Positions 42,903 through 48,836 of a stretch of 64,000 nt of DNA are shown piece by piece (position 1 is the first letter of the stretch; each line of letters begins with the position of its first letter). Location: the NCBI GenBank assembly GCA_025980465.1, contig JAICXJ010000006.1:1-64000 (forward strand). The letters run 5' to 3'. The notes below the pieces were generated by a model that saw only the letters and a program-made list of their open reading frames with translations, did no database searches and was not told the DNA's origin. A program made the translations under genes and the position numbers. This DNA comes from Frankiales bacterium (GTDB lineage: Bacteria; Actinomycetota; Actinomycetes; JAFAQI01).

Positions 42903-43673
42903 TCACGGTTGCGCCGGCTTCCGCCACTGCACTATCAGTGAGGGTTCGACAGAGCCGTTGGCGATCTGGCTGGCGAGCTCGCCGAGCTTCGCGTTGTGGT
43001 CGCGGGAGTAGCGGCGTAGTTGCTGGAACGCGGTGTCCATGTCGACATGCCCGGTGGCGGCGAGCACGCCTTTGGCTTGTTCGATAACAACTCGGCTGTT
43101 GAGCGCCGCTTGCAGTTGCTCGTTGACCAGGTTCCCTGCCCGGGCACTTTGCTGGTGCAGGATTCCTATGGTGGCGGCGTCCGCGAGGGCCTGAGCGACG
43201 CGAAGGTCGACGTCTTGCGGCTCGCTTTGACTGTGGAACAGGTTGAGCGCGCCGATTGATTGATCGCGCAACCTCATCGGGAGGGCGTGAACGCTGCGAA
43301 GCCCGACGGAGACAGCAACCGCGGCAAATGTCGGCCATAGCGTCGCGACGTCAGTGAGATCGGCCGTCACCGCCCGCTTCGTGTGGAACGCATCGAGGCA
43401 GGGGCCTTCCTCGGCCTGGAGCTGGAAAGCCTCCAGTAGTCCGGTTGCCTCACTCGACGACGCTGCCACCCGGAGAAGACCCTGATGGTCAATGATCAGC
43501 AGCCCGGCTGCCGTGGCCCCGAGCACGTCGACACTGGTCTGGACCAGCACATCCAGCAGGTCGGCGACATCGAAGTCCGTCACGAGCGTGTCCGCAAGCA
43601 TGACGAAGGCCTCGGCCAGCCGAGCCTGCTGAGCGATTGCTGCCGGTGGCGGTGTCGTGCGGGGCTCGGTCAT
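42903..43673 (-). CDS. GAF-ANTAR RNA-binding antiterminator
   Basis: 256 residues. GAF sensor domain about 20-170 (LLDVLVQTSVDVLGATAAGL, EEGPCLDAFHTKRAV, VHALPMRLRDQSIGALNLF). The ANTAR domain follows at about 185-245: LQAALNSRVVIEQAKGVLAA, DMDTAFQQLRRYSRDHN, which binds paired RNA hairpins to prevent termination. Immediately follows a second gene of the same architecture (3-bp gap), suggesting duplication and co-regulation. Signal unknown. Confidence 0.92.
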   Translation of the reverse strand: MTEPRTTPPPAAIAQQARLAEAFVMLADTLVTDFDVADLLDVLVQTSVDVLGATAAGLLIIDHQGLLRVAASSSEATGLLEAFQLQAEEGPCLDAFHTKRAVTADLTDVATLWPTFAAVAVSVGLRSVHALPMRLRDQSIGALNLFHSQSEPQDVDLRVAQALADAATIGILHQQSARAGNLVNEQLQAALNSRVVIEQAKGVLAATGHVDMDTAFQQLRRYSRDHNAKLGELASQIANGSVEPSLIVQWRKPAQP

Positions 43674-43676
43674 CTG

Positions 43677-44501
43677 TCAGTCCTCTTCTGGTGATAACTG
43701 TAGGCCTGCAGTGACGACGGCGCGCGCCACATCGTTGATGTCGAGATCCCTGGCGTACGCATACCCCCTCAGCCGCAAGAAGGCCTCGTCCATGGCGACC
43801 CCTAGCTGCACGGAAACCATGCCGGTGGCCTGGTGGACCTCAAGCCGGTAAGACGCGCCTGTCGGCGCAGTGGCAGCGGGAAGGTCCATCGCCCGCGCGG
43901 AGCGCACGTCGAGCAACGCGTCCGCGGCGGCGTCCGCGATCTTCCACGCGGCACGTAGCTGCAACGGGGTCAACGCTCCGGGTCGTCGGCGGTAGAGATC
44001 GAGGGCGCCGAGTCGGGTGGCGCCTATCAACAGTGGAAACGCAAACAGTGCCCCCACCCCGGTGGCCGCCATCGCCTCGGTGAATGCCGGCCAGCGACCT
44101 CCCGCGCCGGCGAGCGCGGGGCTCATGTCCTCGATGAACACTGGCCCGCCGCCAGCGAAGGCATCAACGCACGGCCCTTCCCCGAACGCGAACTGCAGAT
44201 CTTCGACCCGCCGCGCTACCTGGTCCGTGGCGCAGACGGTCCCGCGATGCCCTGCGGAAGTCATCAACGAAAGGCCGGCCCCGTCGACACCGACGGCGAC
44301 GAGTGCCTCCTGGCACAATCGCTCGGCACGGCCTATCCCCGGCACCTCCTCCCGCACCGCCTCGTGGTCAGAATGGCCGCTCGCGGCCGGGCTGGGCACG
44401 TCGTCAGTCAGTGTCCGCCGCGATTCGACGGGGACACGCGGATACTGCGCGATCCCGGCTGAGACGGCGCGCGATAGGAGCGCGACCGTGGTTGATGACA
44501 T
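43677..44501 (-). CDS. GAF-ANTAR regulator, second copy
   Basis: 274 residues from ATG 44501; longer upstream frame has no family match. GAF domain: CQEALVAVGVDGAGLSLM, FGEGPCVDAFAGGGPVFIED, GALFAFPLLIGATRLGALDL. ANTAR domain: YRLEVHQATGMVSVQLGVAM, AFLRLRGYAYARDLDINDVA. Same design as the next gene but only moderately similar, so not a recent duplicate. Probably heads a two-gene operon. Confidence 0.9.
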   Translation of the reverse strand: MSSTTVALLSRAVSAGIAQYPRVPVESRRTLTDDVPSPAASGHSDHEAVREEVPGIGRAERLCQEALVAVGVDGAGLSLMTSAGHRGTVCATDQVARRVEDLQFAFGEGPCVDAFAGGGPVFIEDMSPALAGAGGRWPAFTEAMAATGVGALFAFPLLIGATRLGALDLYRRRPGALTPLQLRAAWKIADAAADALLDVRSARAMDLPAATAPTGASYRLEVHQATGMVSVQLGVAMDEAFLRLRGYAYARDLDINDVARAVVTAGLQLSPEED

Positions 44502-44617
44502 GGTCGGTCTAGATGTGATGGGGAGTCGGGAAGCGTCTCGGCCATGTTGTCGCCGCCTTGAAAGCAGTAATTGCGGAGCGGCGAGATGCATTCGTCCGGG
44601 CAGGCTCACACGCGCTG

Positions 44618-45586
44618 TTACCTGGTCAGTCTCGCATACCTGCTTACCGCAACGCCGTCGACAGGCTTGGTGAATGAAGCGACCGTCGGAACTATCTGCC
44701 CGCGCAAGCCCACGCCGGCCGCGATGACGAGGCCAAGAACAATTATCAGCGGCGCTGTGTTCGGATCTGTTGCCTGGCCGGTGGAGAGTCCGCCGAGGGC
44801 TTGACCCGACACCCAGTATCCGGCAGCAAGGCCGAGGCCCGCCGTGACGGCCGCCGTACGCGCAAACCCCGAGACCAGCACCGCGACGCCGATCAGCGTC
44901 TGAATGACAGCAAGCGCGACTGCCAGCGCCATTCCGTGCGGCAGACCACCCGCAAGGCTCGTATCGAAGTGTCGCAGCCAGTTGGGTGCGTCACCGGCGG
45001 AGTTCCGGATCGCCGCCGCGATGTGCTCGCCGCTGTTCTGGCCGGGAAGCACCTGAAGCAAGGCGCCGACGACCCACAGCCCTGACCAGATACCGATGGC
45101 CAACCTCTCGTTGATCCGGGTGTCGCCGTCGCCCCCCGGACGTGGCCAGGCGGCAACGGCAAGGGCCGCATAGAGGACCACGGCGCCGGGGGCTCCGGTG
45201 AGCAGCATCGAGTGGCCCGACAGCAGTCCACCGAAACCCTCGCCGAGCCACCACACCACGAGGCTCCAGCCGATCGACGCAACCAGCGCCGGCTTCGCCG
45301 TACGCCGGAAGACGAGACCGATCGCGAGAAGGAACTGCGCTATCGCGAACGGCGCGTTGAACAACACCGGATGCGACGCGACGAGTGCGGCCATCGCATG
45401 AACCGGTCCGGCGACTACGACCGGCTGGCCGTCGCCCGCCTGGTCAAGCACCTCGGTGGCAAACGAGCGGCTGAACATGAACGGTTGGCATTGCAACGCC
45501 GCGTCGAGCAACCAGAGCACAGCGAGCGCCCAACGAAGAAGGTCGCGATTGACTCGCCACGACCGCGATGGCGATGAGCGGGACAT
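44618..45586 (-). CDS. Polytopic membrane protein, DoxX-like, next to the copper-type module
   Basis: 322 residues, about eight helices (LLRWALAVLWLLDAALQCQP, HAMAALVASHPVLFNAPFAI, ALVASIGWSLVVWWLGE and others). Histidines fall near helix ends (GPVHAMA, SGHSMLL, RHFDTSL, GLPHGM), which could bind metal or haem, but no family rule supports this. It starts about 110 bp from the divergent five-histidine lipoprotein gene. Related membrane proteins occur next to similar lipoproteins; association with the ECF module is inferred. Confidence 0.6.
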   Translation of the reverse strand: MSRSSPSRSWRVNRDLLRWALAVLWLLDAALQCQPFMFSRSFATEVLDQAGDGQPVVVAGPVHAMAALVASHPVLFNAPFAIAQFLLAIGLVFRRTAKPALVASIGWSLVVWWLGEGFGGLLSGHSMLLTGAPGAVVLYAALAVAAWPRPGGDGDTRINERLAIGIWSGLWVVGALLQVLPGQNSGEHIAAAIRNSAGDAPNWLRHFDTSLAGGLPHGMALAVALAVIQTLIGVAVLVSGFARTAAVTAGLGLAAGYWVSGQALGGLSTGQATDPNTAPLIIVLGLVIAAGVGLRGQIVPTVASFTKPVDGVAVSRYARLTR

Positions 45587-45633
45587 GCCGACGGTTCGCC
45601 TGACGCGACCGAATGGTTCAAAAGATTCACAAT

Positions 45634-45662
45634 CCGAACCGTCCTCCCCCGAGGTGCGAACA
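45634..45662 (+). promoter_or_regulatory. ECF-type promoter of the five-histidine lipoprotein gene
   Basis: CCGAACC (45634-45640), 16-base spacer, CGAACA (45657-45662), 36 bp before the ATG. The identical boxes with the identical spacer length stand before the ECF sigma gene (47474-47502); spacers share no sequence. A pair conserved only in boxes and distance is best explained as one sigma factor's -35/-10. Confidence 0.75.
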
Positions 45663-45697
45663 CCCGTCGACTGTCACACCCGTCGAGGAGGAATCTC

Positions 45698-46936
45698 ATG
45701 GCTTCACGCATCGTGCCGTTGAAAGCAGGTGCCGCCGCGGCAGCGATCGCTTTGTCGGCCGCCGCCTGCGGCAGTTCGTCAAGCGGCGGCAGCGCAGCGG
45801 GCAGCAGCCCGCCGGCGAGCAACTCCGCATCAAGTTCAGGTAGCGACGCAACCGCGACCCAGGCCGCCACATTGCGGTCCGGACTCGATCAGCTCTTCCG
45901 GATGCACGTCGACCTGACGGCGGCTGCAGTCCAGACCGCCGTGAGCACCAGCCCGACCTCCAGCCAGACCGCCGCCGCTCTCACCACACTCGACGGCAAC
46001 ACGGTCGCCATCGGCGACGCGATCGGTCAGATCTACGGCGCCACTGCCCGCACCGCGTTTCTCAAGATGTGGCGAGCGCACATCGGCTTCTTCGTCGAAT
46101 ACACCATCGGCCTTGCAACCCACGACAACAGCAAGGTCAACGACGCACAGGCGAAGCTTGCCAACTACAAGCAGGACTTCGCCAAGTTCCTCGGCGGCGC
46201 GACCGCGATCTCGCCGACCGCGATCGCGACAGAGTTGCAGGGCCACATCCAGACTCTGGAGGCCGCGATCGAGGCGATCGTGACAAAGTCGAAGACCGCG
46301 GGCGAGACGCTGCAGATGGCCGCCGAGCACATGGACGGCACAGCACAGGCGCTGGCCGCGGGGATCGCAAAGGAGAAGAACCTCACCGGTAACCCCGACA
46401 GCGCCGCGTCGGGCCTGCGCTCCGCCCTGACCGGACTGCTGATCCAGCACGTAGCCCAGACCGTGCAGGTGATCCAGAGCGTCGTCGCGACCGGAACGCT
46501 GGCCAGCCCCGAAACGACAGGTGCGGTGTCCGCACTCGACCAGAACACCGTCGACCTCGGCAAGGCCATCGGTTCGTTGTACGGCGGGAGCGCCCAGCGG
46601 GCCTTCCTGAAGATGTGGCGCGCCCACATCGGGTTCTTCGTTGAATACACGCAGGGTCTCGCCGGTCACGACCAGGCGAAGGTGGCCGATGCCCGGCACA
46701 AGCTCGCCGGCTATCAGCGACAGTTCGGCAGCTTCCTGGGCTCCGCGACCGGCTTGCCCGCCAGAGCTGTGTCGGCAGACCTCGCCGCCCACGTGCAGAC
46801 GCTCGAGACCGCGATCAAGGCGATCCTCGCGAAGAGCCCGACCGCGGGGGCGAAGATCTCCATGGCCGAGGCACACATGGCGGGAACGGCCACCGTCCTC
46901 GCCAAGGCGATCGCCGCGCAGAAGCAGCTTTCGTAG
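45698..46936 (+). CDS. Lipoprotein with two tandem five-histidine helical domains
   Basis: 412 residues, exported by a lipobox (LSAAAC, Cys24), then a Ser/Gly-rich linker to about 55. Two repeats of about 180 residues. The matching pairs are His70/251, His128/310, His142/324, His183/365 and His211/393, always 181-182 apart, in motifs such as FLKMWRAHIGFFVEYT (identical in both), HIQTLEAAI/HVQTLETAI and AEHMDGTA/EAHMAGTA. All helical, so each repeat is likely a four-helix bundle with a His-lined centre. Similar domains occur in Bacillus proteins labelled copper amine oxidase-like. Metal or haem binding is inferred; no enzyme motif. AGGAGG precedes the ATG. Confidence 0.75.
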   Translation: MASRIVPLKAGAAAAAIALSAAACGSSSSGGSAAGSSPPASNSASSSGSDATATQAATLRSGLDQLFRMHVDLTAAAVQTAVSTSPTSSQTAAALTTLDGNTVAIGDAIGQIYGATARTAFLKMWRAHIGFFVEYTIGLATHDNSKVNDAQAKLANYKQDFAKFLGGATAISPTAIATELQGHIQTLEAAIEAIVTKSKTAGETLQMAAEHMDGTAQALAAGIAKEKNLTGNPDSAASGLRSALTGLLIQHVAQTVQVIQSVVATGTLASPETTGAVSALDQNTVDLGKAIGSLYGGSAQRAFLKMWRAHIGFFVEYTQGLAGHDQAKVADARHKLAGYQRQFGSFLGSATGLPARAVSADLAAHVQTLETAIKAILAKSPTAGAKISMAEAHMAGTATVLAKAIAAQKQLS

Positions 46937-47045
46937 TCCGCCTCGACCTGAACCGGCCCCGGTGGGCGAGGTGCGCTCCTCCGGCATCTCGCTCACCGGC
47001 CCCGCCCACGCCCGTGGCAATTCATTGATCGAGGAGGTGTTCGCC

Positions 47046-47459
47046 GTGCGACTCCCGACCGCCCTCGCGGCGACCGTGCTCGCCGCAGCGCTGACGAGCT
47101 GTTCTTCCGGCTCCAGCGCCACCAACGCTGCCGACTCCAGCCCGGGCCCGGCTGTGGCAGCAACCATCGGCTCGGACGGGGTCCAGCGGGTCACCATCGA
47201 GGCCACCGACATGTTCCGCTTCGAACCGGCGACGATCAGTGCGCATCCGGGATCGCTGACCATCACCCTCGTCGACAACGGCGGCTATCCCCACAATCTC
47301 TCGGTCAGTGGCCTGCACACGACATCGCATACCGTCACCGGCGGGCCCGGACAGAGCCGGACCACATTCATGGTTCGCTTCCCTGGCCCGGGCACCTACC
47401 CGTTCGAATGCACCTTCCACTCCAGTGCGGGGATGCGCGGGGAGTTCGTGATCCGTTGA
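47046..47459 (+). CDS. Cupredoxin lipoprotein
   Basis: 137 residues from GTG 47046, with GAGGAGG eight bases upstream. Lipobox LTSCSS (Cys19). Cupredoxin beta-sandwich: DMFRFEPATISAHPGSLTIT, then the type-1 copper ligands His83 (GGYPHNLSV), Cys122, His125 and Met130 (FECTFHSSAGM). All four are present, so it should hold blue copper outside the membrane. It follows the five-histidine lipoprotein gene by 109 bp and precedes the sigma factor, which supports a copper or electron-transfer module. Confidence 0.88.
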   Translation: MRLPTALAATVLAAALTSCSSGSSATNAADSSPGPAVAATIGSDGVQRVTIEATDMFRFEPATISAHPGSLTITLVDNGGYPHNLSVSGLHTTSHTVTGGPGQSRTTFMVRFPGPGTYPFECTFHSSAGMRGEFVIR

Positions 47460-47473
47460 GCTTCTGTCTGGTA

Positions 47474-47502
47474 CCGAACCGATCAGCCAACGGCTGCGAA
47501 CA
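47474..47502 (+). promoter_or_regulatory. ECF-type autoregulatory promoter before the sigma gene
   Basis: CCGAACC (47474-47480), 16-base spacer, CGAACA (47497-47502), seven bases before the ATG at 47509, so transcription would start at or just before the gene. Same boxes as 45634-45662. Fits autoregulation of the ECF sigma factor. Confidence 0.7.
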
Positions 47503-47508
47503 TTCGGT

Positions 47509-48120
47509 ATGACCAAACCACCCGCGTCAGCCGAGCAGCGGGCAAATCTCCGGCTGGAGGACGCGGCGCTGCTCGCCCGGGTGGCCGACGGCGATGAAGC
47601 CGCACTCGAGGCGGTCTACCAGCGGTACGGCACCTCCTGCTACCGGTTGGCACGGCGGCTGATCGACGACGCGCAGCTCGCGGAGGACGTCGTCCAACAG
47701 GTCTTTCTCGCGCTCTGGCAGAACAAGACCTACGACCCTTCACGAGGTGCCGTCAGTACCTGGCTGTTGTCGATCACCCACCACAAGGCAGTGGACCTCC
47801 TCCGCCGCGACAAGGGCCGACGCCAGCGGCTCGGCGACGAGCAGGAGCTGCTCGAGGTAGCGGCCGCGGGCCCCGGTCCGGCGGAAGCCGCCTGGGCGAG
47901 GATGCGTGCCGAGCGCACCCGGGACGCCCTGCGTGAGCTACCGGTTGAGCAACGGGAAGTCCTGCTTCTCGCCTACTACGGCGGTTACACCCAAAGTGAG
48001 ATCGCCGACCTCACCGGGTTGCCCCTCGGCACCGTGAAGAGCCGTACCTTTCAAGCGATGCAACGGCTCCGGCGCACACTCGCGGGTGCGGTGACCTCGA
48101 CCGAAGGACCGGAGTCATGA
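47509..48120 (+). CDS. ECF RNA polymerase sigma factor, SigK-like
   Basis: 203 residues. Region 2 about 25-95: EAVYQRYGTSCYRLARRLI, AEDVVQQVFLALWQN, STWLLSITHHKAVDLLRR. Region 4 about 135-190: LRELPVEQREVLLLAYYGGY, EIADLTGLPLGTVKSRT. Its anti-sigma gene overlaps by ATGA, as in sigK-rskA type pairs. The promoter-like CCGAACC-N16-CGAACA occurs before itself and before the five-histidine lipoprotein gene. Confidence 0.93.
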   Translation: MTKPPASAEQRANLRLEDAALLARVADGDEAALEAVYQRYGTSCYRLARRLIDDAQLAEDVVQQVFLALWQNKTYDPSRGAVSTWLLSITHHKAVDLLRRDKGRRQRLGDEQELLEVAAAGPGPAEAAWARMRAERTRDALRELPVEQREVLLLAYYGGYTQSEIADLTGLPLGTVKSRTFQAMQRLRRTLAGAVTSTEGPES

Positions 48121-48836
48121 CTGACCACGCGCAATGGGACGAGCTCGCCGCCGGTCACGCGCTGGATGCTCTGGAGCCGGACGACGAGGAGCGCTTCGCC
48201 GCCCACCTGACCGGCTGCGATGAGTGCGCCACCACTCTCGGCGACTTCACACTCGTCGCGGCACAACTGGGCTCGCTCGCGGAGGGTGGGCCCGAAGCAC
48301 CTCCGAGCTGGCAGCAGGTCCGAGCCGGCATCATCGGATCGAGCGCTCATGTGACCGACCTCGGCACGGCGCGTCGACGGCGGGCGACCCACCTGCTGGC
48401 GGCCGCTGCCGTCATCGTCATGCTGGCGGGCGGCGGCGTGGCGGGCTGGCAGCTAGCCGGCCATGGAAGCGGTCGCGGCCGGGCGTCGACGGTGGCGCTC
48501 GCTTCCTGCCGACAGCTGGTCGGCTGTCGTGAGATCAAGCTGCACACCGCCAGCGGCGCCAGCCCGGCTGTCGTGACCGTCAACGCTGACCGCGCCACAG
48601 TGGTTCCGCTGTCACTCGCTGCAGCGCCGGCGGGCCGCATCTACGTGTTGTGGCAGATGCCGCGGGACGGCAGCCCGATCCCAGTCTCAGAATTTCGCGA
48701 CACCACTCGGCAGACGGCGGCCGTGCCGCTTCCGTCGCGGTACGACGACACCGCTGCCTTTGCCATCAGTGTCGAGTCGGCCGCCGTGACACCCTCCCGC
48801 CCGACTCACGTGCTGGCCGTCGGCAACACCACCTGA
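48117..48836 (+). CDS. RskA-type membrane anti-sigma factor
   Basis: 239 residues. Cytoplasmic N-terminal zinc-binding anti-sigma motif with His30-x3-Cys34-x2-Cys37 (FAAHLTGCDECATT), one membrane helix at 91-115, then an extracellular C-terminal domain (PAGRIYVLWQMPRDGSPIPV, DTAAFAISVE) of the RskA family. Holds the sigma factor encoded just upstream (ATGA overlap) until an outside signal triggers proteolysis. Signal unknown; copper is suggested by the neighbours. Confidence 0.9.
   Translation: MTDHAQWDELAAGHALDALEPDDEERFAAHLTGCDECATTLGDFTLVAAQLGSLAEGGPEAPPSWQQVRAGIIGSSAHVTDLGTARRRRATHLLAAAAVIVMLAGGGVAGWQLAGHGSGRGRASTVALASCRQLVGCREIKLHTASGASPAVVTVNADRATVVPLSLAAAPAGRIYVLWQMPRDGSPIPVSEFRDTTRQTAAVPLPSRYDDTAAFAISVESAAVTPSRPTHVLAVGNTT

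Follow-up and report, generated by a model that had tools for sequence, protein, structure and literature searches.

Three sites at a Frankiales locus are very probably promoters of one SigK-like ECF sigma factor in an autoregulated SigK/RskA-type regulon

Among described systems, the closest to the locus studied here is the mpt83-sigK-rskA cassette, which occurs in Mycobacterium tuberculosis, Yersinia and others and is reported in PMC7509140, which cites Veyrier 2008, to be conserved across genera. Autoregulation of SigK in M. tuberculosis runs via the promoter of Rv0449c, and control by RskA has been tied to the cysteine pair C133/C183 of SigK, an equivalent Cys pair being present in 94% of ECF18 and in 56% of ECF19 (PMC7509140).

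The window, as we call the whole stretch of DNA that was analysed, comprises 64,000 nt of a Frankiales bacterium (GCA_025980465.1, contig JAICXJ010000006.1, positions 1-64,000 of the forward strand; genome G000). It encodes an ECF sigma factor directly adjoining an RskA-type anti-sigma factor, and an exported lipoprotein gene lies behind a predicted site of this sigma factor (Table 1). The module thus has in common with the mpt83-sigK-rskA cassette an ECF sigma factor, an RskA anti-sigma factor and an exported lipoprotein whose gene follows a conserved site of the sigma factor, as well as autoregulation, which in the module is predicted from promoter position and conservation. Unlike that of the cassette, the lipoprotein is all-helical, consists of two domains and does not belong to the MPT83 family, and the module further contains a cupredoxin as well as a membrane protein. 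Autoregulation would use the sigma factor's own promoter, rather than that of an upstream operon as for sigK of M. tuberculosis. The best NCBIfam matches of the sigma factor are PRK12519 and SigK, each below its cut-off; since the SigK model NF007228 gives 141.8 bits against a cut-off of 226 bits, we call the protein SigK-like and do not file it as SigK. It has no equivalent of the C133/C183 pair, C44 being its sole cysteine. The SigK/RskA-type design is known; what is new lies in the cargo and in the leaderless spacing. An earlier note on this DNA, made from the letters alone, knew of no description of such a module. A literature search found no published description of these cargo genes together, but the general arrangement has a precedent in mpt83-sigK-rskA (PMC7509140).

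Table 1. Genes and predicted promoters of the module in the window, with the corresponding lipoprotein-gene sites of three relatives
Feature	Position	Strand	Description
Membrane protein, 322 aa, hydrophobic	44618..45586	-	no Pfam or NCBIfam family
Membrane-protein-gene promoter	45593..45621	-	TTGAACC-N16-CGAACC, then GTCGGC, then ATG (45586), i.e. 6-nt gap
Lipoprotein-gene promoter	45634..45662	+	CCGAACC-N16-CGAACA, 35 nt ahead of ATG, GGAGGA ribosome site
Lipoprotein, 412 aa, with two all-helical domains in tandem	45698..46936	+	no Pfam family
Cupredoxin lipoprotein	47046..47459	+	Copper-bind PF00127; ligand pattern H...C-H-M (YPHN, CTFHSSAGM)
Sigma-gene promoter	47474..47502	+	-35 CCGAACC 47474-47480, 16-bp spacer, -10 CGAACA 47497-47502, 6 nt to ATG
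ECF sigma factor, SigK-like	47509..48120	+	sigma-70 regions 2 and 4; single Cys, C44
Anti-sigma factor	48117..48836	+	RskA_C, N-terminal HX3CX2C, one apparent transmembrane segment; overlaps sigma stop codon
Lipoprotein site, G005 (L131)			TAGATCC-N16-CGAACT
Lipoprotein site, G006 (L132)			GTGATCC-N16-CGAACG
Lipoprotein site, G023 (L134)			GCGAACC-N16-CGAAGA

We interpret three sites of the window, with high though not full confidence, as promoters of this one SigK-like sigma factor, which would form an autoregulated SigK/RskA-type regulon. Two of them had been recognised in the earlier note as a pair of identical boxes with 16-base spacers, and both are confirmed to the base (Table 1). The third, on the reverse strand ahead of the membrane-protein gene, had been overlooked and was detected by scanning both strands. 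The membrane-protein and lipoprotein promoters are divergent, and 12 bp separate their -35 boxes. At the sigma gene, CGAACA is followed by TTCGGT and then by the ATG. The lipoprotein promoter probably also serves the cupredoxin gene by co-transcription. The proposal that the module stands under the SigK-like factor is supported for the lipoprotein (and cupredoxin) and has to be amended for the membrane protein, whose gene is preceded by a promoter copy of its own.

The earlier note had suggested scanning this genome and its relatives for the motif. A whole-genome pattern scan found no third exact copy of CCGAACC-N16-CGAACA anywhere in the 3.45-Mb genome and zero exact matches to the reversed pattern, where a dinucleotide model leads one to expect 0.0035 copies of the motif per window and 0.19 per genome. 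The repeat alone, picked after looking, is nevertheless weak proof, because about 1,300 other word pairs of the same 7-N16-6 shape are likewise present twice within the window. The case for a promoter pair is carried by position and conservation in the sequences compared, not by the repetition itself. Scanning the genome with 2 mismatches gave 212 matches and was uninformative; genome-wide regulon scans were made with IUPAC patterns. In a relaxed exact scan of five genomes, about 25 sites were examined and nearly all of those outside the module lay inside coding frames. One free-looking site in G005 (L169), which precedes a putative methionine-synthase-like enzyme, was counted as chance.

Sigma homologues at 77 loci of named genomes, most of which belong to Pseudonocardia, Geodermatophilaceae or Frankiales-like bacteria, were compared; the pattern [ACG]A[AT]CC-N16/17-CGAA is present upstream in 55 and absent in 22. 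The -10 box ends 6-8 nt ahead of an in-frame start in 46 of the 77 (exactly 6 nt in 36), and within the window's own family nine of eleven sigma genes have the promoter upstream, mostly with the 6-nt gap. With such a gap between -10 box and ATG, transcription would begin on the start codon or next to it, so that a leaderless mRNA and autoregulation are probable for the sigma gene. Leaderless mRNAs are described as an extensive class in M. tuberculosis (PMC3898074).

Ahead of the lipoprotein gene, sites were found in three relatives (G005, G006 and G023) whose lipoproteins are 54-68% identical to that of the window. They lie 240-253 nt from a fixed codon, compared with 238 nt in the window; in a fourth relative, G010, the contig stops short of this region. 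When lipoprotein upstream regions were scored against blocks of the same contigs with a PWM trained on sigma promoters only, p was 0.002 for the window, 0.004 for G006 and 0.003 for G023. The G005 site is weak by this measure (p = 0.12), yet it stands at the matching distance. CCAATCC-N16-CGAAGA also precedes more distant lipoprotein paralogues in three f14 genomes, and no recognisable site was found upstream of several other distant paralogues. A single-domain paralogue encoded elsewhere in the window's genome (L150:7226-7963, G000:C70) is without the promoter motif.

The promoter type extends to further genes and lineages. In G023, which belongs to another family, GAACC-N16-CGAAAG ends 6 nt ahead of the ATG of the membrane-protein orthologue, and a scan of that genome with the leaderless pattern GAACC-N16/17-CGAA-N8-RTG gave two matches only, at the sigma gene and at the membrane-protein gene. 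Together with the window, this puts the promoter on all three units of the module in two genomes. Among 40 genomes searched, membrane-protein homologues occur in G001, G004 and G023, and those of G031 and G034 are weak and partial. In G001 the homologue (L247:2575-4428, G001:C189) adjoins a secreted protein that has a cupredoxin-like C-terminal ligand pattern and no Pfam match.

In Microcella putealis and a Microbacteriaceae metagenome-assembled genome (L116 and L117), the gene order is cupredoxin, single-domain lipoprotein, sigma and RskA, and CCAAACC-N16-CGAACA ends 6 nt ahead of the ATG of the cupredoxin gene, the first of the cluster. The motif was thus found upstream of the kinds of gene that the earlier note had named, namely in most of the sigma loci counted above, at the closest lipoprotein orthologues and at the Microbacteriaceae cupredoxin, and its relaxed matches elsewhere fall mostly in coding sequence.

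Two leaderless patterns gave 57 matches across 14 genomes, compared with 4 for reversed controls, and the genes that recur downstream of them encode the sigma factor, the membrane protein and an amine-oxidase flavoprotein. The last carries the promoter 6 nt ahead of its start in five sister genomes (G002, G003, G006, G008 and G010), and in G003 it is followed by genes for a DUF1365 protein and a cyclopropane synthase (CMAS). The same set of genes lies beside sigK in M. tuberculosis (the Rv0449c operon), and operons of amine oxidase, DUF1365 and cyclopropane synthase are also under ECF control in ChrR-sigmaE regulons. The sister genomes share with Rv0449c-type operons an amine-oxidase gene, which in the sister genomes stands under the module's promoter type. 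In G000 and G023 the flavoprotein was not found, and the membrane protein, lipoprotein and cupredoxin are present instead. A 60-aa N-terminal probe did not find the amine oxidase in G000, G023 or G005 (the last 68% complete).

Within the window's family, 11 of 12 genomes (the window's included) have the sigma orthologue and four have a close lipoprotein, which indicates a constant core with changing cargo. The coherent five-gene module envisaged in the earlier note has to be amended in that its sigma and RskA core is widespread and the lipoprotein-cupredoxin pair is optional cargo. A small membrane protein of 133-136 aa and of no family (L131:8732-9164; L269 in G006:C62) has the motif 6-7 nt ahead of its ATG in two genomes. 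The 136-aa protein of G006 carries the promoter, and its G005 homologue is encoded directly upstream of the lipoprotein gene with a 7-nt gap, so that this protein is likely another member of the regulon.

The form of the sites bears on which sigma factor reads them. The -35 core is GAACC at every site of G000 and G023 and GATCC in G005 and G006; in four further genomes both the amine-oxidase and the sigma sites have GATCC. The M. tuberculosis SigK consensus, CCATCC-N16/17-CCGAAT, would closely resemble the GATCC/CGAAT forms found in the relatives. By our own count, label permutation over 8 genomes gives about 1 in 28 for this within-genome co-variation, part of which is explained by phylogeny. 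The target and the sigma gene lie on separate contigs for the lipoprotein in G005 and for the amine oxidase in G002 and G010, so the shared motif is not explained by adjacency. A -35 core that follows the genome, combined with unlinked targets, favours one sigma factor reading all sites.

Three other explanations of the sites were weighed. The sites may be genuine ECF promoters that are recognised chiefly by a different ECF sigma factor, and the genome does hold 38 first-look sigma-like candidates, while ECF factors can overlap in specificity; this is improbable, however, given that the motif consistently precedes homologues of this very sigma factor and that the -35 core tracks its own promoter genome by genome. 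Less credible still is that an ordinary transcription factor binds the sites as CGAAC direct repeats about two helical turns apart. CGAAC does stand in both boxes in the window, with a 22-bp periodicity, but relatives have GATCC or CAATCC in the upstream box and keep only the downstream CGAA, which means that the direct repeat is not conserved; moreover, spacers measure 16-17, and start codons follow the downstream box at 6-7 nt, as they would a -10. Practically no weight is left for a chance repeat spotted after the fact. The many recurring word pairs of the window speak for it, but it is already contradicted by the conservation of the sites at orthologues, and start-codon position, the third site and genome-wide rarity are against it as well.

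Under the preferred reading, that of promoters of the SigK-like factor, we infer from the positions, conservation and rarity of the observed sites how the switch may work, from recognition and start points to signal and cargo function. In unstressed cells the RskA-type anti-sigma factor would hold the sigma factor at the membrane, and an extracytoplasmic signal, likely redox, metal or envelope stress, would free it. The freed holoenzyme would then recognise [T/C]GAACC-N16-CGAAC[A/C] at the sigma-rskA operon itself, with a probably leaderless mRNA, at the divergent membrane-protein gene, likewise probably leaderless, and at the helical lipoprotein and cupredoxin genes, which would be translated from a normal ribosome site. 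The cargo would work on the outer side of the membrane, and its most likely role is the handling of copper or electrons.

The cupredoxin has both the Copper-bind profile and the H, C, H and M ligands expected of the plastocyanin/azurin type. For the lipoprotein, the earlier note had counted five histidines, which is right for the first half only; the whole protein has 11, four of them conserved in each domain (H70, H128, H183 and H211 in the first). The first half is predicted as a six-helix domain (pLDDT 82, model from four sequences). Sequence search found no convincing PDB relative, and Foldseek gave a best, non-significant E of 0.28. A match to tetrathionate hydrolase was weak (45 residues, E 0.003) and is not credited. 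Homologues of 28-35% identity are encoded on Planococcus plasmids in the Bacillota (L217, L218 and L219). Two of the three are annotated as copper amine oxidase; the corresponding Pfam domain was found neither in the window's lipoprotein nor in two Bacillota homologues tested. Unlike the window's lipoprotein, these proteins have a TG sorting-like signal and a membrane segment at the C-terminus, and no ECF sigma gene is present in the neighbourhood displayed. Two of the three adjoin a class F sortase, and one is encoded beside a plastocyanin/azurin-family gene. An actinobacterial homologue (L141) also adjoins a sortase.

Metal binding by the lipoprotein may be suspected from the conserved histidines, and the cargo could act in extracytoplasmic copper or redox handling. 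Alternatively, the lipoprotein may be a surface or cell-wall protein unrelated to copper or redox, with the cupredoxin a mere neighbour, which would be compatible with the promoter reading. The sorting-like signals and sortase genes of the Bacillota homologues make this a serious possibility, though short of probable, as lipoprotein and cupredoxin genes are neighbours not only in the window but also in G005, G006, G010, G023, both Microbacteriaceae and one Planococcus plasmid, and each domain conserves its four histidines. Returning to copper or redox handling, a bolder version of it is tentative and rather doubtful: lipoprotein, cupredoxin and membrane protein could together make up an extracytoplasmic relay for copper or electrons that has so far not been described. 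Frankiales-like bacteria and Microbacteriaceae would have conserved this relay along with its SigK-type switch, the lipoprotein-cupredoxin pair reaching Bacillota without the switch.

For the SigK-like sigma group, these results give a compact regulon that can be read from sequence, with one promoter type, probably leaderless starts and a near-fixed distance of 6 nt, in which the cargo varies between genomes and the core stays. They also link an unnamed family of helical lipoproteins, whose Bacillota members are mislabelled as copper amine oxidase, with cupredoxins and a regulator. To our knowledge, little is known of the inputs and outputs of most RskA-type anti-sigma factors, and a conserved regulon of small size brings both within reach of tests.

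Some further sites and neighbours deserve mention. GAACC-N16-CGAACC lies 6 nt ahead of the ATG of a lipoprotein weakly similar to DUF5666 in G003 (L263, G003:C92:16022-16057), which by its motif is possible further cargo. G012, which belongs to the same order and has no close orthologue of the sigma factor, carries a divergent pair of this promoter type (L250/L257, G012:C33:1618-1710) 6 nt ahead of the starts of a glutathione peroxidase and an acyltransferase gene. Beside the module in the window, at 42903-44609 on the reverse strand, two adjacent genes encode GAF-ANTAR proteins, predicted to be RNA-binding antiterminators.
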